Shown here: in pieces, positions 4,757 through 58,482 of the stretch
Numbering within the stretch: position 1 is the first letter of the stretch
Layout: each line of letters starts with the position of its first letter
Source: Henricia sp. BOLD:AAB3569
Taxonomy: Eukaryota > Echinodermata > Asteroidea > Spinulosida > Echinasteridae
Direction of reading: 5' to 3'
Length of the DNA: 64,000 nucleotides
NCBI GenBank assembly: GCA_037783545.1
Contig: JBBELK010000003.1
Coordinates: forward strand, 682,001 to 746,000
Notes under the pieces: generated by a model
Told to the model about the DNA's origin: nothing
Databases searched by the model: none
Seen by the model: only the letters and a program-made list of their open reading frames with translations
Program-made: the position numbers and the translations under genes

Positions 4757-5091
4757 TGTTGTATTCGAAATCGTACTCTAGTTTATTTTAAGGCAATTTG
4801 GCAACTAAGGCCCTTTATGCTATTTACCATTCGGTATTAGCTTGAACTTTACTTGATTATCAACTTGAGATAACGAAGATTTAAGGCGATGCAGTTGTGG
4901 GAGGAAAACCCCCAGAGAAATCCCCCCATAACCCCCCTCCCCCCCCCCCCCACCCCCACCCCCCCCCCCCCCCTCCCCCCAACCCCCCCACCCCCCCCAT
5001 CCCCCCCATCCCCCCCACCCCCCCATCCCCCCATCCCCCCCACCCCCCCATCCAGATACACGCCCAGTAAATTATTACGTATTATTTGTAC
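4757..5091. repeat. C-rich low-complexity tract beside the kinase exon
   Basis: 4921-5051 on the plus strand is almost pure C with spaced A and T (CCCCCCA-type units). It begins 42 bp downstream of the RTK exon 7 donor, in the intron. The Pro/Gly-rich ORFs here are artefacts. Confidence 0.85.
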
Positions 5092-5325
5092 CTTTGAGGG
5101 TTTTAATGGCGACTTTAGTTGTTTTTCCAACTTCTTCGATGCCAAGAGCAGTACCCAACAACACTCTGCCAAATGCTCCTCGACCGAGCTCTTTCTCAAT
5201 CGTCAGGAGATCTCGCGAGAAAGCCAGACTGGGGCCGATATTACCATAAGACGCGTTGGGGCCATCCGACGACTGTTGCATGACATCATTATTTCCAAGC
5301 GTTGTTGTGACGCTTAACAGAACAC
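5092..5325 (-). CDS. RTK exon 7: tyrosine kinase N-lobe
   Basis: Acceptor CACAAGCAG, donor TCAAAG|GTACAA. After about 35 variable residues comes RDLLTIEKELGRGAFGRVLL, the start of a protein kinase domain with the glycine-rich loop, and then KVAIKTLK containing the ATP-binding lysine. SYGNIG just before the domain holds a possible regulatory tyrosine (Tyr351). Translation past the donor stops after four codons, so the exon end is firm. No downstream kinase motif (HRDLAARN, DFG) is visible to the left; the next exon is at least 5 kb away. Confidence 0.9.
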
Positions 5326-8300
5326 CTGCTTGTGAATGTTACACAGAAACATCAATGTTTGAGACTTTAAAGATCGCCTTTTGTCTGTCGTACGCGTAGA
5401 GGTAGTGCAAGTGCAACTTTGCATTATTGCTGGCGCCCCGAGTTCTCCACATTCAAATGCAGGTGCGGTTTAGAAAGTCGCACAATATGCTGTTGTTGAT
5501 ACGTGGTGCATGTCACTGCCTATCAACGAACAATCCGGTTGCTTTATGCTATTCTCCCCTACGGTGATTCAATCCCTACGGTATTGATTTTATACTTCAC
5601 ACCTGCCACGTGCACCACGCAGCAACATAAATGTAGTCTGAAGTGGATACTGAGTGCGCAATGGGAAAGGAAGTACGCCTGACACCAGACGTTATTTATG
5701 TGAAACGTGCCAAAAAGCTAATTGGTCTCATGTACAGTAACATGTTTTACCATTGGTCTACATGCACACATTTACAGAAATATCACTGAGTTTGGCTTAA
5801 GTTTCGTTCCTCCTGCTCCAATCTCTTTGTAAAGTCTGTAAGATAAGTTGGTCAGATAGTGTATTAAACTGTACTGTTATTTAATGGTAGTTATACAGAA
5901 TATCAATACTGGGATAAATTATCAAGAAAAATAATGAATGCTTAACCCTCCGTTCCTTCATCTGGTGCTGTGGCATCAGTGTCCTCTGCCAAATGTCGCG
6001 ATCGGTTGCTCTCCTTGTTAGATCTGAAAAATTAACAGTAATATACTTTGTGTCCCAGAAAAAAAGGAAATCAAAATTAAATTGCTAAATTTCTCGGTAT
6101 TGATTAATATTTTTTGAAAACGGCAACTAATATCCATTTGATGACCGTGACCTCCTAAGAAGTTCTTTCTCGTTCAAAAGACGAGATCGGAAACTTTGTT
6201 TGAACGGGACAACATTTAACCCGATGTGGCGAACTCGGCTTTAGGGGGTGCGGGCTTTGCGCCCACGTTCCCTTGCTCAAATGCCAGGAGTTCCGTCTTC
6301 ACGAAAATTGCACCTGCCCCTCCTGCCCCCACCCCCTCTAACCTCCAACCGCCCCCACTCCACCTCTTCCCCCGCCTCCACTCCACCCCTTCCCCCGCCC
6401 CCGCCCCCACTCCACCCCTTCCTCTGCCCCCACTCCACCCCTTCCTCCGCCCCCACTCCACCCCTTCCCTGCCGAACAAGCCTGCACCCATGGACGTGTT
6501 GCCTAAATAATTATGGTATGTAGCCAACTGCTATTTTTCATACAGTATAACTGTGGTGTGTGCATTGTGGTGTACTTACCGTGCGTTTGTAATGGGCGTT
6601 AAGTAGCCTGTGACATACTGCTGCGAAGAGTTCCCAGCACGTTTCCTCTGGTATGCCTTCCAAGCGATTAAAAGACCAACAGAAACTGCTCCTAGAGCAA
6701 GAAGCGCCCCCAACGGCCCGACTATCTTAACAATTTGTACAGGGTCTACGAAAAAGGGAAACGTGGAGCTTGTTAGATATATAATTTTACTGAAGCCCCA
6801 GCCACACCGGACCTGCGACCAGACCGCGCTGTGCCGAAAAAAAATTGCAATCGTGGGCAGATCCTATAAAGAGCGCGCGACTGGTCGCAGAGGTCGTGGG
6901 TTATCGCCAGAGCAAAATCAGTCGCAGCAAGGTCGATGTTGAAAACGTCTGATGCGATTTCAAATCGCAGACAGGTGTTAAACCGCCCTCTGGTAGTGGT
7001 CGACCTTGCGACGACACAGAACAGTGGGCTCTGGCTTTTTAGGTTTTTACGACCAAGCTGCGCCCGAGCATGTTTAACTTTTGCGACGTGATCTCGATCG
7101 TCACGGCCAAGTTCTATGGAAGAAAACAAGATGCGCGCGAGACTAGCGCCTGGCACGCGAGACTAGCGCCTGGCACGCGAGACTAGCGCCTGGCACGCGA
7201 ATCTAGTTTTGTTTATTAATTAGGGTTTGTTTAGCCAATCAGCGTGCGGAAAAATCACGCCATCGTGCGTGACATGAGCATGGTTGCGATTATTTTGCGT
7301 CGAGTTGTCACTTGTTCAGCGATACTTACAGGATTTGTTTAGTTTTGTGACTTGAGCGTTACTTTTTTGCTTGATGCCGGGTGTTCTGTCGCAGCGCAAG
7401 AGAATCGCAGGTCGATCTGAGGGCGTTAAGCGGGCCTCCCACTATGCGATTTTTGCCACGAATTCCCCACGATTCGGTACGATTAGCTACGATTTGGTAC
7501 GATTGTGTGTACTAGAGTGTATAGGCAGTCTCCGATAATCGTATCAATTCGTAGGAAATTCGTGGCCAAAATCGCACAGTGGGAGGCCCGCTTTACATAT
7601 TGTCGTACCTCCAGTCGCGCACGGTCATACCACCAGTCGTTAACGGTCGTGGTTCAAGCAGTCTCGCGACTGGGCGTGCAATTGGTCGTGTCACTTGACA
7701 ATTGGTGCTGCCACCTGTAGTGTGCGCGGTCACACGTCAGCACGATTGGTCGTACGATCGGTCGCTGATCGCCACCACTCGTCGCACGAATACCTACGAT
7801 TGATCTTGCGATAGATCTTCTCTAATCGTTGATCGCACGTACGATCAATGTGGCTGCAAATGGAGATCGTATGGGGTGTTAAGGCCGAGCGGTCAAGTGC
7901 ATCGAACTCAGGTTCATGTACGAGCCAGTACTAGAATGTGGGTTCGATGCCGGGTTGTGGCACTTGTGCTCTTGAGCAAGGCACTTAATCACACTTGTTC
8001 CGTCCTTCGGAAGGGATGTAAAGCCGTTGGTCCAGTGTGTTAGGTTTCGGTGACGCACTTTAAAGATCCCAGAGCATTCTTTCGTGAAAAGCAAGGGGAG
8101 GGATTCCCCGGTGTCTCTGGCAGTTTCTAATTCAACTTAGAAGTTGATAGTTATTCGAATATCTACGTTAATTGATCCCATTCCTGTAATTGGCGGTCCT
8201 TCCGCTGTTGGATGTGGTGAATAAATAAATAAATAAATAAACATTGCCGATTGGTCGCCACCAATCGCTCGATCCAGAAATCGTATGATCCGGTGTGACT

Positions 8301-11300
8301 GAGGAACAAACAATCAGTAGTTCATGTGTGACACGTACACATGAACAATTTTCTTTTTTACTAGAAAAATGTGACTTCGTCGGCTCAGGAAAGGTATTTT
8401 TTTACATTTATCAATTCTCTTATTTTGGAATATATACCGACTTGAGTTTAAAAAACTACGGAAACAAAATAGGCTTAATCTAAGGGCGTGTTTGTTTCAT
8501 GACAGATCCGAATCCAGATCCCGATCTGTTTTACCGCGCAGAAACAAACAAAACCGCTCTCAACTCGGATCTCAAATCACGTGAATTGCAATTTATTTAC
8601 CAAATTTGTCAAATTTCTGTTCCAAATTTCTCCCACGACATTCGTCGTAAATAAACAAGCATTCTAAATTTGTTTGTATCGTGTGTTGCCTCTGAAAACT
8701 GAAACGACACGGTTTTACTCACACAAAATCTCCGCGATGTTTACGTCGCCATGTTGGATCTAGCGCTGAACCATCTCTTGAGAAGGATTCCACAGATCAC
8801 AGATCTCGATCGGGATGTGCGCGAAGAGAACGAGTTCACTTTGGATCTGCGCAGATCTGAATCTGGATCCGTCCGAAACAAACACGCCCCAAGAATTTCA
8901 TATCTAAAGCGCCCTCTATTGAAAATGTGTCGCGTTATGCGCGCACATCCTGTTTTGGTTTTTGGTTTGATAATTATGCCAAAGGTCATAAAATTATTCT
9001 TTAAAATGTAATGCTGCAGTTCCTGGTATTCGTAAAGTTGTTTCTCATGCAAATGACATAATGATATTTAATTATCCTACATTTTGTGAGGAAACGGTGA
9101 GAAAAAATAATAAAACTGAAATTGACGCCAAATTTATTCTGAAAGTCAAAATAATTTTGTTGTTCGTGTTTTGAACGTCTGCAAGGTGAGTGAACTTACC
9201 GTTCGTCATCGCGTCAGTTCTTACTGTCGTGTAAACTGATCCATCGGTCGAAATATCGTCAGCCACCGTGGAACTCGCACCCAAACTTGTCATTAATTCA
9301 GTTGATTGACTCCAAGCTTTTATATAGAAAAGCCGAAAATTATTACAAAATAAAAACTCATTGTATCAATTGTGATGGCCCAAAATCTTTACTTCATGAG
9401 TTGACATAAAAAAGCTTCACTCAGTGTTCATAACACTAACAAAAATCACATGATTTTTTTCTGTCCAAATTTGTCCTCGAGTAAAAGAAATTAACAGAGC
9501 TAATTTTGGTCATGTTTTTCATGCCCCGCAGGGAGAGGATTTTTAACCCATTGAAATAAAAATGTCCGTGTATCTGATAGCAAGACGCGCATGTTTAGCA
9601 CCCATGGGTGTGGATTTTTGTCAACTCAATTTTTGCCATAGGGTGGGAATAATTTTGTCAAGCGAAAAGTGACAATCCCTGTGGGGTAGCCCGGGGGAGG
9701 GAGGGGGCAGGGTGAAGGAAGGGGAAACAATTGATATGCGCATTACCTTTACACGTTGGCACCGTGCCATTCCACGTGACATTGTTAAATCCCGTGTCAA
9801 TGCATTGTATGGACGAGGCTCCATGGAGTGTATATCCATCGTGACAGGAGAAATCTACTCGAGTCCCGAAGAACTTGAAGTTGTTGAGATTGAAAGACAG
9901 AGAGCGTGGGTTGGTGATGCGGTGAGATCCGTTGGTTGGGGGGCCAATGTCGTTACTGCACACTCCCTCGGATACTGTAGAGTGCCAAGTTTGTTGGGAC
10001 AAAACACAAGCACATCACACACACACAAATGCAATTAACAGAATGTACATGTACACATTTTCAGCCAACTTGCGTGTAAATTACCGGCAGCCAACTAAAT
10101 TATCTCCACCCGTATAACCACTCATTGTTTATCGGCCAGCTTTGTTTTCAAGCGTTCTTCATCCACTCCTGCATGGCCCCGTTGAGTGGAAAGTTAAAAT
10201 CTCGTTCACAAATTAGGGGCCATCCATAAAGTACGTACGCACGGAGGGAGGGGGGGGGGGGGGTGGTGGGGGGGGGGGGGGGTGGGGGTGGGGGGGGGGG
10301 GGGTGGGGGGGGGGGGGGTGTGGGGGGGGGGGTGGGGGGGGGGGGGGTGGGGGGGGGGGGGGGTGGGGGGGGGGGGGGTGGGGGGGGGGGGGGGGGTGGG
10401 GGGGGGGGGGGGGGGTGGGGGGGGGGGAAAGGATGGGAAAGGATGGACAAGTTGACCATAGCTTCAGACCTTATGTACATAACATAGTAGACAGGCCACA
10501 CATTTTTCTCACACATCTCACATTTTTCTCACTCCTCAAATTAGGTTTTCTCATTAAATCACCAGTTGAATGATGCTTGATGTGTCATTTTAAGTAAATT
10601 AAACAAAACAAAATGTAAAAGAAATCTATACATTTTAACATTTATTTCAGACTTAGGTGGCGACATGCGAATCGTACTACACGTAGTAGTATATAGCACT
10701 ATACATGTAGTACTGAATCATTTTTTACCAATGCTGAGGTATATATGGAATGCGTATGCGTACAGGGGGAGGGGGGTGGGGGTTGGAGCCACTGCGTACG
10801 CCATGCGTACAGGGGGGAGGGAGGGTCTAAAAAGTCGGCATTTCATGCGTACGTACCGGTACTTTATGGACGACCCCAAAGGTGTTCGCATTTTGGTTCT
10901 CTGCATTCGAAAGGCGTTACTGTGTCCTGGCAACGCGCGAATTGGCGTTTCGTATACACATTGTGCTTTTAATGTATACTAACGTTTGAATTTGAGGCGT
11001 GTGCCCAAAGCAACAAACCACACCCAATCTCTACGTATTTATGGCGTGATTTAGAACAGATATCTTACTTCGATAAACGGACAACCTAAAATAGTCTCCA
11101 CACATCTGATTGCTGTTGCCCTGACACACGTCCTGGCATTCAGAGTCTTCCTTCTTCCCGTGTCGGCCATAATCTTCGTTATTCCCACAGAAACATTCAT
11201 ATCTGTTTTCGAGCCCAGCGTATGTGTAGTTGGATGATGTGGACTCTAAGCAGTATCTGAAGCACCACTCAACCGACTGATAGTACCTAAATATCGGTCC

Positions 11301-14300
11301 GATTGGTTGTAGGGCGCGGCGGTCACTACACATCTGTCGCGGACAATCTTTGAAGCACCCCAAGTACCCTGGACCTAAAACAGGAATGGAATTTATTGAA
11401 AATTTGTAACAAATCAACGGTCTTTTTATAGGTTTTGTGCGAAAAACTCAAATTGTCGTCATCATTATGGTTTTGTATACCTTGATCAGTCTTCTTGTTA
11501 TACATGAAACCGACTGATCGTTGCTAGGGCGTGGGGATCAATTAGACTGTTATATTCCCTAAAGTATCTCAAATAATCTGGCGCTTGAAAGAGCAGACCA
11601 ACTAAATGTATCAAGCATTTTGCATATATGCGTAGGCTGGTTTGGGCGCGGCATGGGGTGGATTTTCAGCGTGCGCGTAAAACCCGCACCCGGTGTCACG
11701 GTCTCAGATGTTCCGCGTGCTCAGATGTTCCGATGACGTCACGGAACAGTTCAGCACGTTGCGTGCACGATCTCAGATGTTCCGCGTGCTCACATGTCCC
11801 GGTGTAAAAGGTAAAACTGTCCCCTTGCGAATGTGTACCCGGCTTTCCATAGACGAGTGCATACAAGCATTGTAACTAGTGGCGAACGTTGGCAACGTTT
11901 GCGCATGATGTGGAACGCAGCCCTGTACACATCTGCGCGCCTACGTACATGGCGCGAATTCTGCTGATCAACTCAGCACTTCACCTAAACTGGTATAATT
12001 ACGTATGCTGTGCGCATGACGTTCCGTGACGTAAGCTACCATATTTGGTCATCGGAACATCTGAGCACGCGGAACATCTGAGATCGGGGCAACGGGAAGC
12101 TGATGTCGCCAATTTGGGTGATCGGTCTGCGGTTGGGGCTTAACACCAGTGGAGATTTTTTGGGGAACGAATTACATTTTGGGAGAACATTTTTCTTGCA
12201 AGACGGAACTCGTCTGCTGCTGGCGGGGAAGGGGGGGGGGAGGAGGTGTGTGTGCAGGCGCGGATCCAGGGGGGGGGGGGGGGGGGGCCTGGGGGCACGT
12301 GCCCCCCGGGCAAATTGAGTCCAAAAAGGAAAGGAAAGGAGAGGAAAAGAGGTAAAAAAAAAGGGGGGAGGGCAAGTAGTTGAGTCAAAAAAAAAGTGGG
12401 GGGAAGGAAAGGCAGTAAAAAAAAAAGAGAAATCGGAGGGCAATCTTCTTAAAAAAAATACCGATGCCGATATTTAACATCTAAAACCAAGAAAAAATCC
12501 GGAAAATAAGAAATGATGATGGGTAAAAACTGCATATTAAATGCCAAATTGGGGAGGGAGAAACTTTATAGATTTTTGTCAACTTAACCGGGCGAAAATA
12601 ATGGCTAACTAGAAATGTGTTCGTTGAAAACGAACACATGGCTGTTCCCCTCCTTTTTATAAACATATATGGTGTTCGGGATGACCTTTGTTAGTGATCG
12701 TATATGAATAAATCACGATCGTAGGTCAAACGGTTGAGTTTTTATCTATTTTTAAATATTGAATATTATTACATGCCCCTTTAATCTGACATGTAGGGAA
12801 AGTCAAAGGTGTTGCTATATGTTTGGATACCCCACCCTAGTCGAAGTGTAACACAGTTGACCCCATCGTGGTATATTGTACCCCTTTCAAATGGAAAGGC
12901 AAAATCTGTTTGACCAATAGGAAACGAGGTCAAAGGTCAAGCCATGTGCGCATCTTAAAGACATTTGTTAATGATCGTATATGCAGAAGGAATCAAATTC
13001 GTAGGTCAAACGGTAGATTTTATATTGATTTTTGAATATTTAATTACGTAATCATCTTGTCGCTAGAGGGCGCTATTTCGTACGATGACGTCATTACTTA
13101 TATTTTTGGAAAGCTTAAGGGCCTCTGATAATAACACCATTGACCCCATCTCAATACCTCCTACCACTTTCAAACTAAGGGCCACTTCCGGTTTCGACCG
13201 GAAGTGAGCAAGGTCAAAGGTCACAAAAATATTTTTTAGATACCCCACCCTAGTCGAAGTGTAACACAAGTGACTTTGTCCAAATATCTTGCACCACTTT
13301 CAAATGGCAAGGCAAAATCTGTTTGACCAATAGGAAACGAGGTCAAAGGTCAAGGGGTGTGCGCATCTCAAAGACCTTTGTTAGTCATCGTATATGCCGA
13401 AGGAATCAAGATCGTAGGTCAAACGGTTGATTTTTTATTGATTTTTGAATATTTAATTTATTAAACTTCATACCCCTTTAATCTGACACGTGATGACGTC
13501 ATCATGACGTCATTAGTACTGTGCACAACTTCACATAGTGACCAATGTCCATGTGAAGTTTGAAGTCAATCATCAATGTGCAAGTGCCCGAAATAGCGTC
13601 TGAAAAAAATGGAAGAAGGAAAAGAAAAAAGAAAAAAAATAAAAAAAACTAGACCTGTGTTCGTTCTTGACAACGAACACATGGCTGTTCCCCTCCTTTT
13701 TATAAACATATATGGTGTTCGGGATGACCTTTGTTAGTGATCGTATATGAAGAAATCACGATCGTAGGTCAAACGGTTGAGTTTTTATCGATTTTTAAAT
13801 ATTGAATATTATTATATCCCCTTTAATCTGACCTGTAGGGAAGGTCAAAGGTGTTGCTATATGTCTGGATACCCCACCCTAGTCGAAGTGTAACACAGTT
13901 GACCCCATCGTGATATATTGTACCCCTTTCAAATGGAAAGGCAAAATCTGTTTGACCAATAGGAAACGAGGTCAAAGGTCAAGCCATGTGCGCATCTTAA
14001 AAACATTTGTTAGTGATCGTATATGCAGAAGGAATCAAATTTGTAGGTCAAACGGTAGATTTTTTATTGATTTTTGAATATTTAATTACGTAATCATCTT
14101 GTCGCTAGAGGGCGCTATTTCGTACGATGACGTCATCACTTATATTTTTGGAAAGCTTAAGGGCCTCTGGTAATAACACCATTGACGCTATCTCAATACC
14201 TCCTTTCACTTTCAAACTAAGGGCCACTTCCGGTTTCGACCGGAAGTGAGCAAGGTCAAAGGTCACCAACATATTTTTTGGATACACCACCCTAGGTCCA

Positions 14301-17300
14301 AGTGTAATACAGTTGACCACATCCAGATATCTTGTACCACTTTCAAATGGAAAGGCAAAATCTGTTAGACCAATAGGAAACGAGGTCAAAGGTCAAGCCC
14401 TGTGCGCATCTTAAAGACATTTGTTAGTGATCGTATATGCCACAGGAATCAAGATCGTAGGTCAAACAGTTGATTTTTTATTGATTTTTGAATATTTAAT
14501 TACGTAATCATCTTGTCGGTAGAGGGCGCTATTTCGTACGATGACGTCATCACTTATATTTTTGGAAAGCTTAAGGGCCTCTGGTAATAACACCATTGAC
14601 CCCATCTCAATACCTCCTTTCACTTTCAAACTGAGGGCCACTTCCGGTTTCGACCGGAAGTGAGCAAGGTCAAAGGTCACAAAAATATTTTTTAGATACC
14701 CCACCCTAGTCGAAGTGTAACACAAGTGACTTTGTCCAAATATCTTGCACCACTTTCAAATGGCAAGGCAAAATCTGTTTGACCAATAGGAAACGAGGTC
14801 AAAGGTCAAGGGGTGAGCGCATCTCAAAGACCCTTGTTAGTCATCGTATATGGCGAAGGAATCAAGATCGTAGGTCAAACGGTTGATTTTTTAATGATTT
14901 TTGAATATTCAATTGATTAAACTTCATGCCCCTTTAATCTGACACGTGATGACGTCATCATGACGTCATTATTACTGTGCACAACTTCACATAGTGACCA
15001 ATGTCCATGTGAAGTTTGAAGTCAATCATGAATGTGCAAGTGCCCGAAATAGCGTGCGAAAAAAGTGGAAGAAGGAAAAGAAAAAAAAAAAAAAAAAAAT
15101 CGTAACGAAAACAAAGGCTGTTCCCAACCGTGTTGGAACAGCCAATAAAAATCTTAACGAAAACAAAGGCTGTTCCCAACCGTGTTGGAACAGCCAAAAA
15201 TAATGGCGAAAATAATTTTTCAACAATCTTCAAAACTTTTGCTTAAAAAAGTCAGTTAAAAGTGGCAAGGAATCGCCTTAGATTGCACCACAGAGCATCT
15301 AGAATCCAAAATTTCCCGGGCCCTTAAGCGGGCCCCGGACCCCACGCCGTAAGGGCTTCGCGATACGCGCTCGCATTTGTCCCTTTTTGTTGTGCCCCCC
15401 CTTCTACAAAATTCCTGGATCCGAAAATAATTCTTCATACACACAATTCTCAAAACACACAACAATCTTCAAAACTTTTGCTTAAAAAAGTCAGTTAAAA
15501 GTGGCAAGGAATCGCCTTAGATTGCACCACAGAGCATCTAGAATCCAAAATTTCCCGGGGCCCTTAAGCGGGCCCCGGACCCCACGCCGTAAGGGCTTCG
15601 CGATACGCGCTCGCATTTGTCCCTTTTTGTTGTGCCCCCCCTTCTACAAAATTCCTGGATCCGAAAATAATTCTTCATACACACAATTCTCAAAACACAC
15701 AACAATCTTCAAAACTTTTGCTTAAAAAAGTCAGTTAAAAGTGGCAAGGAATCGCCTTAGATTGCACCACAGAGCATCTAGAATCCAAAATTTCCCGGGG
15801 CCCTTAAGCGGGCCCCGGACCCCACGCCGTAAGGGCTTCGCGATACGCGCTCGCATTTGTCCCTTTTTGTTGTGCCCCCGCCTTCTACAAAATTCATGGA
15901 TCCGAAATTAATTCTTCATACACACAATTCTCAAAACACACAACAATCTTCAAAACTTTTGCTTAAAAAAGTCAGTTAAAAGTGGCAAGGAATCGCCTTA
16001 GATTGCACCACAGAGCATCCAGAATCCAAAATTTTCCGGGGCTCTTAAGCGGGCCCCGGACCCCAGGCAGTAAGGGCTTCGCGCTACGCGCTACGCGCTC
16101 GCATTTGTCCCTTTTTCTTGTGCCCCCCGTCTACAAAATTCCTGGATCCGCGCCTGGTGTGTGTGTTGCGTCCGCACCCTGAACCCCTTTACACCGCCTC
16201 CACCCCCACCCCCAATTTTAACCAAATTTATCATTTTCCCAATTTGTCAAGGTTATTCTTTTAAAGAAGCTTGTCCAGATTTTTCAAGAAAATGGAGAAC
16301 ATTTCAACTTGAATCGGCAAAAATTACTTCCGATCAACAACATATAACGATCAGAGTGTGTTGAGGTGTAGGGGCATTAGGGGGGAGTCCCTTTGCCACA
16401 TATCGTGCTGGGTTTACCTCATGGTGTGTTAAGGGTATTTGTAGCCATTTTGAGGATGAAAACTGTTGGGTTTGTTGGGCCAGGAATTAATGGAAGGTCC
16501 CAAATGGGCTTGCCCAAGTTTATCCCAAATGATTCCCATATGGGGCAACCCGTGTATAGATCCCCATAGACTTGCCCAGGTTTACCCCTTACGATTCCCA
16601 TATGGACCATCCCGGGTTTTCTCACGCTTGGGAGCGACACTGCATGTATGCAATGGGCTATTTTGAGGAATCCTAGGTTTCAGTACCAGAAAGAAATAAC
16701 AATAATAATAATTAACGAAAATTGGTGAATGTAGGGAGACATTTCCATAGAGTCGTGTGCACAAATTTAATGACGCCTAACTTAAATTTCAAGCGTAAAT
16801 GGTTTGTGCCCTAACCTAACCCCGACCTAATCATAATTCCAATTAATATTTTTAATTAATTTGAGAAAAAATAGGGAGACATGGCAAAACACACCGGCTT
16901 TGTTGGGCTATCTTGGGCTCGAAATAGACCCATACATTATTCTGATGCGCTTTCCAGAGTATTTTGCCGTTTTTTAGCATTTTTCAAAATTCAAGTCACG
17001 TGGTCTTGTGAGTTAGTTGTATTTCCAGCCGTAGAAACCAGCGCGAAGTGCGAGTTGCTTTTGTCATTCGCGGTAATAATAAATATATTTCTCTTCTTGG
17101 TGGAAAATAATGTCCTACGAACACTATTTACATACTGTATTTTCCAATGTGTAGACAAATCTGCCAGCAGGTTTAATTAGAAGGGTTTCTGGGTGTTTAT
17201 ATGGACGAGAGAATCTCTCAGATTTTCGCGGATTTGCGGCGATACAAATAATATCCGAAGAAAAAAACACCATTTATTGCGGACGTGCAAGAAACCACTG

Positions 17301-18371
17301 CGTTCGAGTACCTTCCGCGAGTCGGCGCTGACCTTGGAGGATCATGCAAGGTGTGATTAGTCATGGAAAACGAGGTTTAAACACGTGTCGGCCCGTATCG
17401 AACGCCACCTTTATTTACAAACACATGGAGTTATACAGCGACGGACGGCTGGTAAAGCGTATAGCCTAATACGGGCCTCTTTTGTCGTTTTTAAACATTT
17501 TCACTTACTTACGTGACATTTTGATAAATTATTTTCACAACGACCCTAAAAAAAATTTTGTCAAGGATGCTAGGTTGCTACATTATGTAAACAGTAAACC
17601 GGTGTGTCCCTTTAATTACAAAAGTCCCCCTTATACCCCGTTTTACCCCTAACGTGTCTTTCTAATAACATATTTGATGAAATATGGCCGGTTTGCCCAT
17701 GTCTATCCCATGTGATTCCCATATGGGGAAACCCGTGTAGATCCCATATGGGCTTGCCCCATATGATTTTTGATGTGGAAGCAAACAGTTTGGGGTAATT
17801 ACTACACTGCTTTATGTAACCGGATAAATTAGTTTACAAAACTTTTGTTAACCATATCCTTGTAAATTTACGGATTGAGAGCCAGAAATGGCAGTACGGT
17901 AATGAAAAAGTATTATAAATAATATGGTATTAAAATATCGACATACAAATTTGGGGGGGGGGGGGGGGATGGGGGGGGGGGGGGGGGGGGGAGGAGAGGA
18001 TGTTGGACCTTAACAAAATGTGATCTGAAATACGCAGCTCCATAGCAAAGGCATAGAGCGGCGTATTTCGTGGCACGAATTTTGCGCGCGCGCATTGCTG
18101 ACGACCTGAGCCTTTTAATGAAACGTTGATCGTAAAAAGAGACAAAGGATTTTTGAATTTTAGGGTTTTTTTTTTAAATACATGTAGGCCTACCACTAAC
18201 TTCGGCAATCTGAGAAAATGCTATAATTATTTTATTTAGCTTTGTTTTTCAAAATAGAAGGAACACCACGATATTTAGGATTTAATATTTACCGTTCTGT
18301 GGCTGAGAATAGACCAGTCCAAGTTGCATAAATATCATCAGTGTTGAAACCACACACCGAAGACCAAGCAT
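5092..18371 (-). CDS. Receptor tyrosine kinase with WSC and sushi ectodomain (5' seven exons, gene continues left)
   Basis: Seven exons join in one open frame of 402 codons: 18371-18293, 11374-11069, 9974-9747, 9316-9200, 6745-6580, 6023-5947, 5325-5092. The protein would be a type I plasma-membrane receptor: signal peptide (1 to about 24), WSC domain (27-128, ten Cys), one CCP/sushi domain (129-204, four Cys), Ser/Thr-rich stem (205-243), transmembrane helix about 251-272 followed by basic residues, acidic juxtamembrane region, then the kinase N-lobe with GRGAFGRV (372-379) and VAIK with catalytic Lys399. The long loop between the glycine loop and VAIK recalls FGFR/RET-type kinases. Intron phases are 1,1,1,1,2,1 and every junction restores the frame. 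The C-lobe exons are not in 1-5091, so the window cuts the gene. WSC and CCP modules suggest carbohydrate or protein binding; the ligand is unknown. I cannot assign it to a named vertebrate RTK family. Confidence 0.85.
5326..5946. other. RTK intron 6, no recognised feature
   Basis: Sequence between exons 6 and 7. I see no coding exon, tandem repeat or paired terminal repeats in it. Confidence 0.6.
5947..6023 (-). CDS. RTK exon 6: juxtamembrane segment
   Basis: Small 77-nt exon, acceptor TTAATTTTTCAG, donor GGAGG|GTTAAG. In the frame set by exon 5 it reads SNKESNRSRHLAEDTDATAP followed by an acidic end. Entry phase 2 and exit phase 1 match both neighbours, which is the main support because the sequence is not domain-like. 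The donor GTTAAG is less common than GTAAG. Confidence 0.7.
6024..6579. repeat. RTK intron 5 with CCCC-ACTCCA minisatellite
   Basis: About 6315-6470 repeats a C-rich unit of about 22 bp containing CCCCACTCCACCCCTTCC. The remainder shows nothing recognisable. Confidence 0.7.
6580..6745 (-). CDS. RTK exon 5: transmembrane segment
   Basis: Acceptor TTTTTCGTAG, donor CACG|GTAAGT. The only open frame encodes a helix of about 22 hydrophobic residues rich in Gly, Ala and Leu (251-272), closed by the stop-transfer sequence KAYQRKR. It then gives a short cytoplasmic piece with QYVTGYLTP, containing two tyrosines. The exon enters in phase 1 and leaves in phase 2, which is where the run of phase-1 introns ends. 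Confidence 0.85.
7137..7200. repeat. Three tandem copies of a 20-bp unit
   Basis: GCGAGACTAGCGCCTGGCAC is repeated three times without change, then continues as GCGAATCTAG. It is part of the surrounding DNA element. Confidence 0.9.
7876..8241 (+). mobile_element. tRNA-derived SINE, type 1
   Basis: The head GGCCGAGCGGTCAAGTGC matches a pol III A box and GGTTCGATGCC a B box, in tRNA-Leu/Ser style. The body has CTTGAGCAAGGCACTTAAT, a core motif shared by many SINEs, and the tail is (AAAT)n. It sits inside the DNA element at 6797-8301. Confidence 0.8.
8484..8889. mobile_element. MITE with GGGCGTGTTTGTTTC terminal repeats
   Basis: The left end GGGCGTGTTTGTTTC is mirrored by GAAACAAACACGCCC at the right. 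Inner sequences GATCCGAATCCAGATC and GATCTGAATCTGGATC extend the inverted repeat. It lies in RTK intron 4. Confidence 0.75.
8890..9199. other. Rest of RTK intron 4
   Basis: AT-rich, no repeat pairs or exons seen. The GTAAGT donor of the stem exon is at its right edge. Confidence 0.6.
9200..9316 (-). CDS. RTK exon 4: Ser/Thr-rich extracellular stem
   Basis: 39 codons starting WSQSTELMTSLGASS and ending RTDAMTN, rich in Ser, Thr and Asp, without Cys. Donor G|GTAAGT is strong. The acceptor TATATAAAAG has a weak pyrimidine tract, but frame and phase (1-1) fit both neighbours. It probably forms an O-glycosylated spacer between the sushi domain and the membrane. Confidence 0.75.
9317..9746. other. 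RTK intron 3, no recognised feature
   Basis: AT-rich unique-looking sequence between stem and sushi exons; a short G-rich stretch at 9685-9725 is the only irregularity. Confidence 0.6.
9747..9974 (-). CDS. RTK exon 3: CCP/sushi domain
   Basis: 76 codons between phase-1 introns (acceptor ACTCTACAG, donor AAAG|GTAATG). It encodes one complement control protein module: first Cys in EGVCSNDIG, second in VDFSCHDGY, third in SIQCID, and the conserved Trp followed by the last Cys in VTWNGTVPTC. NGSH, NVTW and NGTV are N-glycosylation sequons. Sushi modules usually mediate protein contacts. Part of the region also reads as a plus-strand ORF, which is only a shadow. Confidence 0.9.
9975..11068. repeat. 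RTK intron 2 with a 190-bp poly-G tract
   Basis: 10249-10428 is almost pure G on the plus strand with single T every 8-20 bases, a strong candidate for G-quadruplexes. A shorter relative, CGTACAGGGGGAGG, occurs twice at 10764-10820. The long Pro or Gly ORFs are artefacts. Confidence 0.85.
11069..11374 (-). CDS. RTK exon 2: WSC domain
   Basis: The 102-codon exon starts after acceptor CTGTTTTAG and ends at donor CGAA|GTAAGA; both flanking introns are phase 1. It begins PGYLGCFKD, has RALQP, then the YAGLENRYECFCGN core, DSECQDVC and finally GDYFRLSVYR. That order of motifs is characteristic of WSC domains, first known from yeast cell-wall sensors and also found in polycystin-1 and kremen. Ten cysteines are present. 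The whole domain sits in one symmetric exon, so it could have been moved as a module. Confidence 0.9.
11700..12087. mobile_element. Foldback element with TCAGATGTTCCGCGTG arms
   Basis: GATCTCAGATGTTCCGCGTG-type words on the left (11700-11800) are answered by CACGCGGAACATCTGAGATC at 12066-12085. The interior includes a piece (ACCCGGCTTTCCATAGACG and on) shared with the MITE at 32629-32768. RTK intron 1. Confidence 0.65.
12609..13648 (-). mobile_element. Helitron-like element C (minus strand)
   Basis: On the minus strand the left end reads hairpin TGTGTTCGTT...AACGAACACA, then TTT and CTAG (12612-12609) followed by T: a Helitron-type 3' terminus. The far end is pyrimidine-rich on that strand. 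The interior repeats AGGTCAAAGGTCA. It is non-coding; the recurring ORF starting MCYTSTRVGYLKN is a repeat translation. Confidence 0.55.
13649..15097 (-). mobile_element. Helitron-like element D, tandem to C
   Basis: Same terminus as C: minus-strand hairpin TGTGTTCGTT...AACGAACACA, GGT, CTAG (13652-13649), T. It carries an internal duplication (about 13990-14450 repeated at 14415-14890) and ends at the A-run near 15080-15097. C and D abut directly. Confidence 0.55.
15221..16157. repeat. 240-bp tandem repeat, about four copies
   Basis: Units start with AACAATCTTCAAAACTTTTG at 15221, 15461, 15701 and 15942, so the period is 240-241 bp. The first three are nearly identical; the last is diverged. 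The unit contains GATTGCACCACAGAGCATCT, shared with the MITE at 42778-43034, from which the array probably expanded. Confidence 0.9.
16158..16884. repeat. RTK intron 1: CCCATATGGG-rich stretch
   Basis: 16490-16620 repeats words such as GATTCCCATATGG and CTTGCCCA; a related stretch is at 17690-17770. Nothing coding is seen. Confidence 0.5.
16885..17615. mobile_element. Repeat family X, copy 1
   Basis: Shares long blocks with 59803-60652, such as TTGTTGGGCTAT, GGCTCGAAATAGACCCATAC and GTGGTCTTGTGAGTTAGTTG. The right end GGTGTGTCCCTTTAA is the inverse of the family's left end AAAGGAACACACC, so this is a DNA element with short terminal repeats. The left end is degraded here. Confidence 0.65.
17616..18292. 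repeat. RTK intron 1: foldback-family fragment and G tract
   Basis: 17780-17930 resembles 37550-37650 (GTAATTACTACA..., ATCCTTGTAAAT...). 17954-17993 is an almost pure G run. 18040-18110 carries CGTATTTCGTGGCACGAATT, also at 26290 and 39075. Confidence 0.6.
18293..18371 (-). CDS. RTK exon 1: start codon and signal peptide
   Basis: Reads M-L-G-L-R-C-V-V then a hydrophobic stretch ending LGLVYSQPQN, a typical cleavable signal peptide with likely cleavage near YS/Q. The ATG is at 18371-18369 with A at -3. The donor is AACG|GTAAAT, phase 1. The final G joins GT of the WSC exon to make Gly, giving NGPGYLGCF across the junction. The exon is too short to stand out as an ORF; I found it by looking for a signal peptide of matching phase upstream of the WSC exon. 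An untranslated exon or a promoter further right was not identified. Confidence 0.75.
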
Positions 18372-23200: not shown

Positions 23201-26016
23201 ATTTTAAATTTAAGATCCTAACTTTTCATACAGATCACATGCTTCTAAATACAGATTACAAAATTGTTGACAAGCTGCTTGCAAACCGATTGAAACAATT
23301 TGTAGCTACCGTTGTTAAAGAAGATCAGTCATATTGCGTCCCCGGACGCACCATTTATGATAATCTAAATTTAATACGCGACGTTATTAGTTTTTCTAAC
23401 ATTAATGATTTACCCCTTGGCGTTTGACAGTGTTGACCACGCCTACCTCTTTAATACAATGAGAGCCATGGGGTTCGGGGATAAGTTTTTACAGTATCTT
23501 AATCTTCTGTACAACAGCGCCGAGAGCCTCCTTAAGGTGTGCGGTTCCTTGACTGCACCCTTTGCTTTTCAGAAAGGAATTCGCCAAGGTTGCCCGCTCT
23601 CGGGGCTGTACACCATTACAATTGAACCCTTTTTGAATTTATTAAGGAAATAATTATATGGGCAGAGTTGTTACCTGCCTAATACCCAGACATATTGCTC
23701 GGTCTCGGCCTACGCTGACGATATCACTATTTTCGTCACCTCCGATTCGGGGTTCCAAACCATTGAAAGGGTGTACAACTTTTTCAGCGGATCCTCTGCT
23801 GCGGTTTTGAACTACGAAAAATCCAAGGGACTATGGGTCGGCTCGTGGACCGGACGAAACGACAAGCCACTAAATGTCCAATGGAATAATCAGGGGCTTC
23901 CCTTTCTTGGGGTTCACCTTGGAAATAACAATAACTACACTAAAACAAACTGGGATAAATGCAAAGAAAAACTTACTAAAACCCTTTCTCGTTGGAAATT
24001 CCTCTCGCCCCTCCTGTCTTTTAAAGATAAAGTCCTGATTGCAAACTAAATCGCCGCCACCAAATTATTCCATTCTCTCGCCGTCCTTTCCTGCCCAGAC
24101 ACAATCCTCGGTGAACTCTAAAACATGCTTGTCGATTTCGTCTGGTCCAATAAACGCCACTTGCTTAAGAAAAAAATATTATACCAAACTTATGATAAAG
24201 GTGGGCTTAGTCTAGCTTGTCTCCAGCCACGCAACCCCGCTTTCAAATTCAAACTACTTCAACGTTATCTACAATTCAATACCTATCCCTGCTTTGCTCT
24301 CATGGATTAGTATCTTCGTAAATACAAAAATCTCCACCTTGGTTACCAAGTTTTCCTGTTCGATCTCGAACCAAAATTTGTCACTATAGTGTTCCTTTTT
24401 TTTTCTATAGTGAGGTTTTGCGTGCCCGCCTTTATCCGACCCTCTGCCGGGCGGTGCGGTCTTCGCTTCTCGACTCTGGTCTAGCAACGTCAAATTCATC
24501 AAGGATCTACTAAATATGGACACGGGCCAGTGGCTTCCGGCACAAGATATCCACCTTTCATCTTCATGCATTCGTCCTCCATCTGTTCGCCTCCTCAAAC
24601 AAGACCTCTCTCGCTTGCACCACTCCATTTCGTCAATATTCCCTTCGATCTTCAACTCCAACACCGGACTCATTCGCACCACATCTCTTTATAACGTTCC
24701 CTCCTGTCCTGCTTCTCCTGGTTTTGTCTTTGTCGGAAATGACACAGATGTCCTCACCTTATCTTCAAAGAAACTGTACATCTCCCTCAACAGGAACACC
24801 AACAACCTGCCGCAAACGACATTGACTCCGTGGCACGGACTTGGTTTTTTCCCGCCTTCCCAGTTAATACAATGGAAGGCGGTCTACTCGCCACCGTCCT
24901 CCAAGAAAGAGGGGGATGTACAGTATAAACTTCTTCACAACGTTTTACCTTCACTGCCTGTTCTACATCATCTGAACCCCAACATCTCCTCAAGCTGCGG
25001 ATGGTGTGGCGAGAGAGGTACGATTACACACCTCTTCATCACCTGCCCGTCTATCCAACCTGCCCTCTGTCTTCTTCATCGCCTCATCGCCCTTCTCTTC
25101 CCGAACCTCGACATCAACTTTGAAACATACTGGACTTTAATTCCTTTTGCCCAGGGTCGAGATAAGGGTGCCGTACGCCTGGCGAACTTCCTTATAATAA
25201 GTCTGGAAAATGTCATCTACTGGCTGTACCGTACCTCCAATTCTTCTGCTCTCCTTCTTATTTGGAAAAACCGCATGAAAAACAAAATAATCCTCGACCT
25301 GAATTACCACAAACTTAACAATTCCATTCCTACTTTTCTTGACAAATGGTCTATTCATAACGCTCTTTTCAGGTACTCCCCCGACAGAATGACATGGTTG
25401 ATATAATGTATCTCCCATCCCCTCCCTTCTCTGTGGGCCTCCAGGGCTGGTAGCCTGTCGCTTCATTGCGAGGCGTGGTGACGCTGTTCACCGCCAGCTC
25501 TGGTGGTCCCTTTAATTGGGAACCCTGGGGTGAGCAACGGGGCGCTCACACTTTTCCCAGGTTTCCCTAACACCCTTCCTTTTTCCCCTTCCCCTTCCTT
25601 TTTCCCCTTCCTTTGTCTACTCCATTTTCCCTCATGCATTAGTTCGACCTGTATTTATTTTCTCAATTTGACAAATCGACTTGTCTAAAACTGTATAATG
25701 TTATATCCAATATCTTTCTCGATTCATTGATCAATAATGTTCTATTTTCATATATCTTCAGGCCTTTTTCTCTTCAGAGTAGCTGCTCGGGTCTTCGAAA
25801 CATGGCTGTGCCTCTGCTCTGGAGAGAGAGGGCTTGATGTATACTGTTACCATTGTTATTTACTTATATTTACATGTTTTAATCTTGTTACGAGAAAAAT
25901 TTCGCATTATTGTTGTTTTTCTGTTATGACCATTCTTTTATTTTGTATATACTATGTATATAACGGCTTGAAGAGGATAGAAATAAAGTGATCCTTGGAA
26001 AAAGTAAAAAAAAAAT
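23201..26016 (+). pseudogene. Broken LINE, reverse transcriptase and C-terminal zinc-knuckle region
   Basis: Non-LTR retrotransposon remnant, truncated at the 5' end inside the RT domain. Visible: LANRLKQFVATVV, VPGRTIYDN, AFDSVDHAYLF, GIRQGCPLSGLY and the catalytic YADD as SAYADDITIF (about 23705-23740), then thumb motifs (FLGVHLGN), and in 24516-25406 a C-terminal region with WKAVYSPPS..KKEGD and the zinc-knuckle-like CGWCGE...HLFITC. Frameshifts or stops occur near 23425, 23652, 24047, 24310 and 24515, and the 'DQEK' before AFD is missing. It ends with an AATAAA-like signal and an A-run at about 26006. The C-terminal pattern recalls Tx1/L1-like elements; the clade assignment is tentative. 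It cannot be active. Confidence 0.85.
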
Positions 26017-28043: not shown

Positions 28044-31000
28044 CTGTAGTAAAAATAAAACTGCATTGTACTAAGGGCTAGCCATTATGAACGGGGACCT
28101 CGAAATATATGTACATGTATACGTTGAGTAAAAAAAAACCGCTCTTTTTGTTTCTTAATAATCAATGATTCATTCACCAGACATTCTCAGTAACCATATC
28201 AACTTGAATACATAGTCAAATAGAAATTATCTGCTGAAGTGTTGGGGACAGACATTCTTGGGGGATAATATTTTGACTCGCCCTATATAGGCTATCCCCT
28301 TCAATCTCATGCATATGACAGTGCATGTTTCCTGAAGGAGATCTGTCTAAATACGTGTGACTGAAGGTGATATAGCAAAATGGGTTTATGCCGTAGAGTG
28401 AAAGATTTAATTTAGGTTAGATTCGAAACTTGTCTTAACGATCTTTATTTGGTCAATCACAGGGGGAAAGTGGTCCGACGATGTGACACTAGTCAAGTAA
28501 GACCTTTTGGATGACTAATAAACAAACCGTGCATGACTAATTAGAAATTAGTCAAATAAGACCTTGTGTATGACCTTTTTTGTTGTTGAGAGAATGAGTT
28601 TTCAGTGTATTAACATAATCTACCATCTAGCGAACTCTCACCTGTACAGAATGGTATCAACTCGTCTGGCTTAATCACCTCATTTCGGCTTCCATTTAAA
28701 AACCGCTCCGGCTTAAAAGATTGTGGCATCGGCCATAACGCCGGATCAGTTCCTAGTGCCCATAGGTTCGGTAAAACCAGTGTGCCCTTTGGAATTCGGT
28801 ACCCTCTAAATGTTACATCAGTGGACGCCTCGTGGGGCACACCAAGCGGTATTATGCTGCCCATACGCTGCACCTCTTGCAGGGTAGCGTTTGTGTAGGG
28901 AAGCTGGTTCCTGTCAGCGATTCTGGGCATGCGGTTGCGACCAACGACACAGTCAAGTTCATCTTGAACTAGACGCTGGATTTCTGGATATGCAACCATG
29001 TAGAGCAAAGCCCATTCCAATGTCGTGGATGATGTTTCTGTACCGGCAGCAAACAGATCAACCGTAGTGCCATACAGATCATTCAGTGTTACTTTCTGGT
29101 CAGGGTTTCGTGTCTCCTTTATGATGACGTCAATGAAATCCCTGAGGTTACTCGAATCAAAATCACTAAGATGTTCTTCGAGGACTGCCCGAGTGAAGTC
29201 ACAGATATACTGCATGTTGTCTAGACATTCCTTGACGAAAGGTATAACCCGGGCCAGTAGATACGAGTAAGGCATAAAGAGAACTGCGCCCCTTGTACCT
29301 CCCATTAGTTCCAAATTTCGATAGAGGCCACGGAGCAGTTCAACAAAAATGGGGTCCGAGTATTTAAACCGTGACCCGAAGACGACAGAACACATGACAT
29401 TTGAGACGGCTTTTGGTAAAATTGAGGATGGACTGAAGAGGCTACCTCTTTGAGACTCGATCTCCTCTAGCATAAAGTGCGCCTCGGTGGTTATCCTGTC
29501 TTCAAAGACTGGTTTTCCCAGCCCAAAATCTCGCACGAAGTTTAAGGTTATTCTTCGATGAATTTTCCACGACTCTCCGGATGCACCAACAATACCTGTC
29601 GAAAATAATATGATGTTGTTCAAAAACTCACAGGCAAGGGTGGTCGGGTTGGCGTACTAGTTCTTTCTCTGCCTTTCACCTCTAGCGTCCCGGATTGGGT
29701 TCCGGGCATGTCTGTTGGTTGGGTTTGCAGTCCCTAGTTGACCGCGTGGGTTTTCCCCCAGGAGATTTCTCTGGGGGTTTTCCCTCCACCCCCTTAATCG
29801 ACATCTCAAGTTGGTAATAAAATATAGTTAGAGCTAAAATCGTGTACATGTAGTTGATGGCATAAAGGGTTTTGGTTGACGAAAATGCCATAAAATTAAC
29901 AACCTCAACTCTGTTAATTAAGTTCCTATTTGAAATACTTGTTAATCCAAATACACTAAACCTCTCCCCTATATTGTGCTAGTCTTCCTAACCTATAAAA
30001 TGCCTTACGTTCAAACAGACATGTGACTAGATTCTTTAATAAAACAGTCATAAAGGTTGTTTGTAGTTACCTATTGGTAGATGTAACATTTTAAAACCTT
30101 TTTACACGCTGGCTCATACTTATCCCAGGTTTCCATGGCATGGAGTGACTAGGAGCATCGCAAACCCCCCCACCACCACCCCTTCCCCCCCCCCCCCCCT
30201 CCCCTCCCCCCCCCCCCTCCATCGAATCCCGATTTAAAAGCCCTGCTCTTACGATGTTTGGTTGTTTCCTTTCAATGGTGATCAGGCACTATACCTCGCG
30301 TTCGTTGTTTTGTACGTATACAAGGCCCGGACAACAAGCCACTTTTAGAATTTTTGAGCATCTGTGCCTTTTTTGGGGTAACTTTAAGAGGGGAAAATGA
30401 TGTCACTCACCAACGCCACCCTTCAGGACCTGCTTAAAGACCGACAACGAAGGTCGACCATCGAGACCAGGGTGATGGTGGAACGCCTCATGAATGACAT
30501 CGTACCCATGGAGTACCACCACGCGACGCCCCGCTACCAAATCAACTCTGACTATAGGCCCGTACTTCTGAGACAATCTGTTAAATTTCAAGAACCGGAA
30601 CAAAAAGATGAGCATCACTCAAGCAACCAAGCAGAGGGATACGTTCACGGATAATTTGCGATTTATACGTAGGCCTACATCCACGATGCAGTGAGAGTCG
30701 GGACCATCGTTCCAGGTTTGGTAAGAATAGGCCGTGTTACGCTACCGATTTTTCTGTCATCCCGTGGCACGTACCACCTCGGATCTACACAAAAGTCATT
30801 GAATATGTAGTTTGAAGCATGACAAATTTAATGGTAGATGTTGTTATTTCCACAACTAAAGGGTGATAAATCGGTCTAATCACTGGATCCGTGGTTAAAG
30901 GCAAAGTCATACATAGGGGTACTTATGGCTTTGGGGTTATTTTGTTTGGTAATTAAAATGTGAGACAATTGAGCGTCTTGAGCGGAGTATATATACCAAG

Positions 31001-34772: not shown

Positions 34773-58482
<23,710 letters not shown>

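Follow-up and report, generated by a model that had tools for sequence, protein, structure and literature searches.

A WSC-sushi receptor tyrosine kinase in a sea star and the relation of its WSC exons to kinase-free receptors

The receptor kinase gene and its domains

The stretch of DNA analysed here, called the window, comprises 64,000 nucleotides (C3:682001-746000) from the sea star Henricia sp. BOLD:AAB3569, where C3 is contig JBBELK010000003.1 and C-numbers in general denote contigs of the 740.7 Mb assembly (2104 contigs). It carries a large part of a gene, labelled W1, for a putative receptor tyrosine kinase (RTK) whose ectodomain combines a WSC domain with a sushi, or complement control protein (CCP), domain, and comparison of its copies suggests that WSC exons have passed between this kinase class and a second, kinase-free receptor class. 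An earlier note on this DNA had read seven phase-matched exons as a single-pass RTK with a WSC and sushi ectodomain. Their coordinates (window 18371-5092), minus strand, phases and GT-AG sites were borne out, and when C3:662001-682000 was read and joined to the window, an extension that the note had asked for, six further minus-strand exons (8-13) completed the kinase domain. The 13 exons give a spliced product of 653 residues with no internal stop, and the layout is found in the same order at other loci; thus the exons are not a chance string, and the claim that they form one gene holds. On this basis W1 is predicted, with high confidence, to be a 13-exon single-pass receptor tyrosine kinase. 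Its exons, all on the minus strand, are as follows.

Window 18293..18371, minus strand: exon 1, coding part, with the ATG and signal peptide (hydrophobic N-terminus; GT donor kept in copies)
Window 11069..11374, minus strand: exon 2, WSC domain (Pfam WSC; Kremen-1 chain match)
Window 9747..9974, minus strand: exon 3, sushi/CCP domain (Pfam Sushi; complement-regulator CCP chains)
Window 9200..9316, minus strand: exon 4, Ser/Thr-rich stem (equivalent exon in copies)
Window 6580..6745, minus strand: exon 5, transmembrane helix and start of the juxtamembrane part (hydropathy)
Window 5947..6023, minus strand: exon 6, juxtamembrane (equivalent exon in copies)
Window 5092..5328, minus strand: exon 7, juxtamembrane and kinase N-lobe (GRGAFG, VAIK)
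C3:681493-681383, minus strand: exon 8, left of the window
C3:680375-680188, minus strand: exon 9, left of the window
C3:679761-679639, minus strand: exon 10, left of the window
C3:678628-678517, minus strand: exon 11, left of the window
C3:677256-677157, minus strand: exon 12, left of the window
C3:675986-675870, minus strand: exon 13, left of the window

Eleven of the 12 introns are GT-AG, and the exception, the intron that follows exon 8, starts with a GC donor that is present in all eight copies compared. The stop codon (end of exon 13, C3:675870 region) borders on a dispersed repeat, a string of which recurs near window 3069-3026, and the C-terminal ends vary among the copies, as others read on or stop differently at this position. 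Because of this the C-terminus of W1 may have been shortened by an insertion.

The Pfam search proposed in the earlier note found all three families in the spliced protein: WSC (residues 30-119, 4.1e-13), Sushi (residues 160-203, 2.8e-7) and PK_Tyr_Ser-Thr (residues 366-640, 2.6e-92). Hydropathy exceeds 1.6 in two places only, the first ~20 residues and about 246-275, and together with the domains and the full kinase this agrees with a single-pass RTK. Kremen-1 chains match the WSC region (2.8e-12 over query 6-115) and the sushi region matches CCP chains of complement regulators. An AlphaFold2 model of the WSC exon, built with 18 related sequences, was poor (mean pLDDT, the predicted local distance difference test, 56), and a Foldseek search with this poor model matched no PDB entry at E<=0.001. 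In terms of sequence the WSC assignment is well supported.

The W1 kinase is apparently active, judged from intact catalytic motifs: the GRGAFG glycine loop, VAIK, the alpha-C glutamate, HRDLAARN and DFG are present. HRD and DFG are also retained at the six other kinase loci compared (see below), with the variants VANK, which keeps the lysine, at C192b and GEGAFG at C141b. When the whole kinase was searched against PDB sequences, the top row was a chain with two EGFR kinase domains, at 158 bits apiece, and FGFR1-3 rows scored ~282-291 bits; besides the two-kinase chain, the best 60 rows were all FGFRs, with RET and TIE lower. In the C-lobe, identity was 56% to RET, 54% to FGFR1 and 51% to TIE2, followed by KIT and KDR at 47% each and INSR, MET and EGFR at 43-44%; of the comparison sequences, those of RET and TIE2 were confirmed. 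As the whole-kinase search favours FGFR and the C-lobe slightly RET, the assignment stops at an FGFR/RET/TIE-like kinase of no single family, as far as sequence similarity goes. Among the matches listed for the nearest other kinases (C161, C806, C585 and others) there was no WSC match, and no Sushi match among the 147 listed (150 scored of 225 candidates); the matches listed for I-set were taken up by titin-like repeats.

Copies of the gene and a kinase-free receptor class

Copies were found by searching the genome with the first 404 residues of W1 and by comparing DNA exon by exon. The WSC-sushi-kinase layout occurs at seven loci, two on C141 (C141a, b), four on C192 (C192a to d) and W1 itself, which agree in exon order and splice contexts. 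A near-identical copy of C192a on C388 is probably an allele of it and was not used in the trees or in the dN/dS table. Within the DNA read for C141, the flank that it has in common with the window reaches window 23 kb, and for C192 and C388 a common stretch lies at window 27.1-29.1 kb, where it overlaps a cytochrome P450 reading frame. Since flanking DNA is common to them, alleles and paralogues are inseparable, and seven is therefore the number of loci in the assembly. The P450 frame (window 28613-29656, minus strand; Pfam 2.6e-83) adjoins W1, and the DNA over its start region is common to C192 and C388.

Exon by exon, W1, C141a and C192d are intact. The reading frame is broken in exon 1 at C192b and in exon 2 at C192c, the WSC of C192a is cut short, and in C141b the WSC is partly duplicated and the end of exon 11 altered; decay and assembly error are both possible causes. 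The copies also bear on whether the WSC and CCP exons could instead be part of a neighbouring gene, which the 6.9 kb with repeats between exons 1 and 2 of W1 would allow. However, this gap is only 1.4-2.6 kb at C141a, C141b and C192b, and order, strand and phase are the same at all seven loci, and we regard a separate gene as highly improbable.

WSC and CCP exons were also found in two further clusters, one with seven WSC exons at C3:2.36-2.41 Mb, 1.67 Mb from W1, and another with eight at C826:29-116 kb. The clusters fall within C3:2355001-2415000 and C826:20001-120000, and no kinase exons were among the matches listed at the two clusters. In the one cluster stretch that was read throughout, C3:2395-2405 kb, two genes each encode a signal peptide, WSC, CCP, stem, transmembrane segment and a tyrosine-bearing tail; the class label rests on a full gene model for these two and on position for the other 13 WSC exons. 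There are at least two tail types: type A, matched at five places, of which two are partial or weak matches, and type B, matched at seven. Each has one motif of the form of an immunoreceptor tyrosine-based inhibitory motif (ITIM), VKYYQL in three of three translated copies of type A and VVYNNV or VVYSNV in two of two of type B; Pfam gave no family for either tail at E<=0.001.

Elsewhere, C164:1085420-1185573 is dense in WSC and Sushi matches, and C3:3578648-3594810 has three more distant WSC exons (36-43% to the W1 WSC), two of them with Sushi beside them.

Apparent exchange of WSC exons between the classes

The kinase exons of the seven loci are alike, with a synonymous divergence (dS) of 0.026-0.095 between W1 and the six others (255-259 codons for C192b, with exons 12-13, which were located, excluded). 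The WSC exons are not uniformly so. Their dS to W1 is 0.00 at C141a and 0.03 at C192b, where synonymous change in WSC and kinase does not differ significantly (Fisher p 0.60 and 0.37), but 0.74 at C141b, 0.77 at C192c, 1.05 at C192d and saturated at C192a, for which 67-69 codons of the short WSC were compared. In these four, synonymous change relative to W1 is greater in WSC than in the kinase (Fisher p 1.3e-11 for C141b, 2.8e-11 for C192c, 5e-15 for C192d and 3e-27 for C192a).

Three of the four diverged WSC exons (C192a, C192c and C192d) sit with those of the tail class. The WSC of C192a has a dS of 0.06 to the tail gene at C826:65k, and that of C192d a dS of 0.08 (C826:115k), 0.12 (C826:101k) and 0.16 (C3:2396k); in the WSC tree C192c groups with the same three tail-class exons (branch support 99/96). 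The tree, with 21 rows and C141b left out for its partly duplicated WSC, implies four switches between the classes, of which starred branches force three or more. Forcing the six kinase rows into one clade costs 94 log-likelihood units (approximately unbiased test, p-AU 4.5e-8), the kinase class having been named for this test after resemblances were noticed by eye in the alignment. The switch point in C192a lies between exons 2 and 3 (exon 3 dS to W1 0.06). In C192c and C192d it is farther down, as exon 3 has a dS to W1 of 0.18-0.22 and exons 4-6 of 0.06, and the signal-peptide exon also resembles that of a tail gene. The CCP tree, in which the row T_C3_2384k is only 22% filled, places W1, C141a, C192a and C192b in one clade (98/92). 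With kinase exons alike, WSC exons like those of tail genes and a single kinase clade rejected, these comparisons indicate that WSC exons have been passed between the kinase and tail classes.

Low kinase dS beside high WSC dS would likewise result if no exon had moved and gene conversion had homogenised the kinase parts of old paralogues, with the WSC exons showing their true age. Conversion alone leaves unexplained both the near-identity of WSC exons in kinase and tail genes (dS 0.06-0.16) and the rejection of a single kinase clade, and conversion across the classes would itself be a form of exchange; we consider this alternative improbable.

Another possibility is that W1 is simply a developmental RTK of the FGFR/RET/TIE group, peculiar to this lineage, which gained its WSC-CCP part by exon shuffling; the copies and the exchange would then follow from the duplicated, repeat-rich nature of the region and would play no part in recognition. 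The kinase is indeed nearest FGFR and RET, many other related tyrosine-kinase exons are found in the genome among the matches listed, the region is rich in repeats and several copies are damaged. What this does not readily account for is that the exchange links two functional classes in separate clusters with splice phase kept, and that the kinase exons are alike while the WSC exons are old and varied. We hold it to be possible, though not the likelier course of events.

Over 21 pairs, the pooled ratio of nonsynonymous to synonymous change (dN/dS, omega) is 0.32 for WSC, 0.31 for CCP, 0.62 for exons 4-6 and 0.30 for the kinase, which indicates constraint at the protein level throughout. Two close pairs in the W1/C141a/C192b group have a WSC omega of 3.0 and 3.9; positive selection on WSC is not claimed, as omega above 1 was not significant for the pair tested, W1-C192b (Fisher p 0.39). 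The WSC variety is read from these comparisons as an old repertoire placed on a young kinase chassis.

Further features were seen in the window and the assembly. Non-LTR-type retrotransposon remnants (RVT_1 and zf-RVT, neither reaching the curated cut-off) lie at window 23654-25403 and an EGF-like domain in an open frame (1e-7) at window 45413-45745, both on the plus strand. Intron 1 of W1 contains tandem arrays at window 13866-16150 (a 414-base unit repeated 2.5 times and a 240-base unit 3.8 times), and G/C homopolymer tracts occur at window 4922-5053 and 10246-10427. Mitochondrial cox1 lies in a 16,221-base unit that is repeated on C955 and occurs once on C2104; it is open when TGA is read as Trp (the echinoderm code), with nd4l and cox2 downstream and, upstream, the minus-strand genes for tRNA-Leu, Gly, Tyr, Leu and Asn and a plus-strand gene for tRNA-Gln. 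This is the gene order of starfish, and it suggests a sea star and not a vertebrate.

Proposed function and known systems

RTKs signal by ligand-driven clustering and trans-phosphorylation. For the W1 family, ligand, expression and any immune role are inferred. The surface ligand of the WSC-CCP head would most likely be a glycan or a glycoprotein, of microbial, self or matrix origin, and its binding would cluster the W1-type receptors and start trans-phosphorylation. The tail receptors may recognise ligands overlapping with those of the kinase receptors, and their tails, phosphorylated by W1-type or Src-type kinases, would then recruit SH2 proteins, so that the two classes would work as opposed or cooperating partners. 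Glycan or matrix sensing by the WSC ectodomain, as suggested in the earlier note, is plausible as a putative function. WSC has been described as a putative carbohydrate-binding domain in two papers (PMC8211107; PMC2754085).

Taken as a whole, the proposal that a shared-sensor RTK class and a tail class are partners like vertebrate paired immune receptors stands, in our judgement, at about even chances. Several observations weigh against it. Four of the seven kinase loci are damaged or odd, and part of the family may be decaying; a single ITIM-form motif in a tail of ~100 residues is possible by chance; and the WSC of W1 itself is without a close tail-class match, the best measured dS being 0.22. 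In addition, the CCP tree is poorly resolved and agrees with the WSC tree only in part, and WSC is constrained overall (pooled dN/dS 0.32), omega above 1 being non-significant for W1-C192b and positive selection thus not demonstrated. More tentatively, these receptors could form a diversifying recognition system of the sea star, microbial or self/non-self, in which an exchangeable pool of WSC lectin-like sensors is placed on RTK and ITIM-type tail outputs, the RTK being the activating arm. The usual textbook view of RTKs is of conserved developmental receptors whose ectodomains are fixed. If the system is as proposed, RTKs would belong among rapidly reassorting recognition receptors, and a candidate route would be at hand by which an invertebrate without antibodies or the major histocompatibility complex couples varied surface recognition to tyrosine phosphorylation.

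The ectodomains of the RTKs nearest in the kinase are Ig-type in FGFR, cadherin-like and Cys-rich in RET, and composed of Ig, EGF and fn3 domains in TIE. None of these was found by Pfam in W1, where WSC and Sushi are the only domains outside the kinase. Kremen, the WSC of which can be aligned with that of W1, is in contrast a Kringle-WSC-CUB co-receptor without a kinase.

The most similar receptor in the accessible parts of the literature is Drosophila Wsck (P83097), described as a WSC-fn3-transmembrane kinase homologue that lacks the catalytic Asp and is placed near Eph (PMC2754085); a moth relative is unclassified among RTKs (PMC11908783). As in W1, an N-terminal WSC on a type I, single-pass receptor is coupled to a cytoplasmic tyrosine-kinase homology domain, and W1 could on these grounds be the sea-star orthologue of Wsck, a member of an old WSC-RTK family whose layout is not new in origin. 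However, W1 has a CCP and not fn3 after the WSC (Pfam found no fn3) and retains HRD and DFG, Wsck being compared by description only, and such orthology appears unlikely to us. Nor is a shared-sensor repertoire mentioned for Wsck in the parts of the two papers available (PMC2754085, PMC11908783).

The novelty proposed in the earlier note therefore needs to be narrowed. Because Wsck has fn3 in place of sushi and a pseudokinase in place of a kinase with catalytic motifs, it is not a named RTK family of the same layout, and a WSC-sushi RTK with catalytic motifs and a shared, exchangeable sensor did not turn up in searches of open-licence literature; the term WSC has no occurrences in the main texts on the oyster kinome (PMC4883820) and the holozoan tyrosine kinome (PMC8662651). 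A WSC-bearing RTK-like receptor as such, on the other hand, already had a name. As far as the open-licence papers go, what is new here are the sushi domain after the WSC, the kinase with catalytic motifs and the exchangeable shared sensor.

Two further reports concern WSC domains. A parasite-resistance locus of Daphnia includes WSC-domain genes (PMC9894429), and amphioxus BbLcLRR is a WSC and ITIM receptor that serves as a substrate of Lck and has an inhibitory effect on T-cell signalling (PMC8211107). The latter, a WSC receptor of an invertebrate deuterostome with ITIM-type cytoplasmic tyrosines, parallels the tail class, but its ectodomain has leucine-rich repeats and its kinase is a separate cytoplasmic protein.

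The arrangement in the sea star recalls paired receptors in two respects, as the WSC-CCP ectodomain is common to receptors with different cytoplasmic parts and the WSC tree and dS values point to sequence exchange between the kinase and tail classes. The vertebrate paired receptors (KIR, LILR, SIRP and Siglec) likewise combine near-identical ectodomains with different cytoplasmic outputs and exchange sequence between classes. The difference is that the activating partner in vertebrates signals via adaptors, whereas here one class would itself be a receptor kinase.

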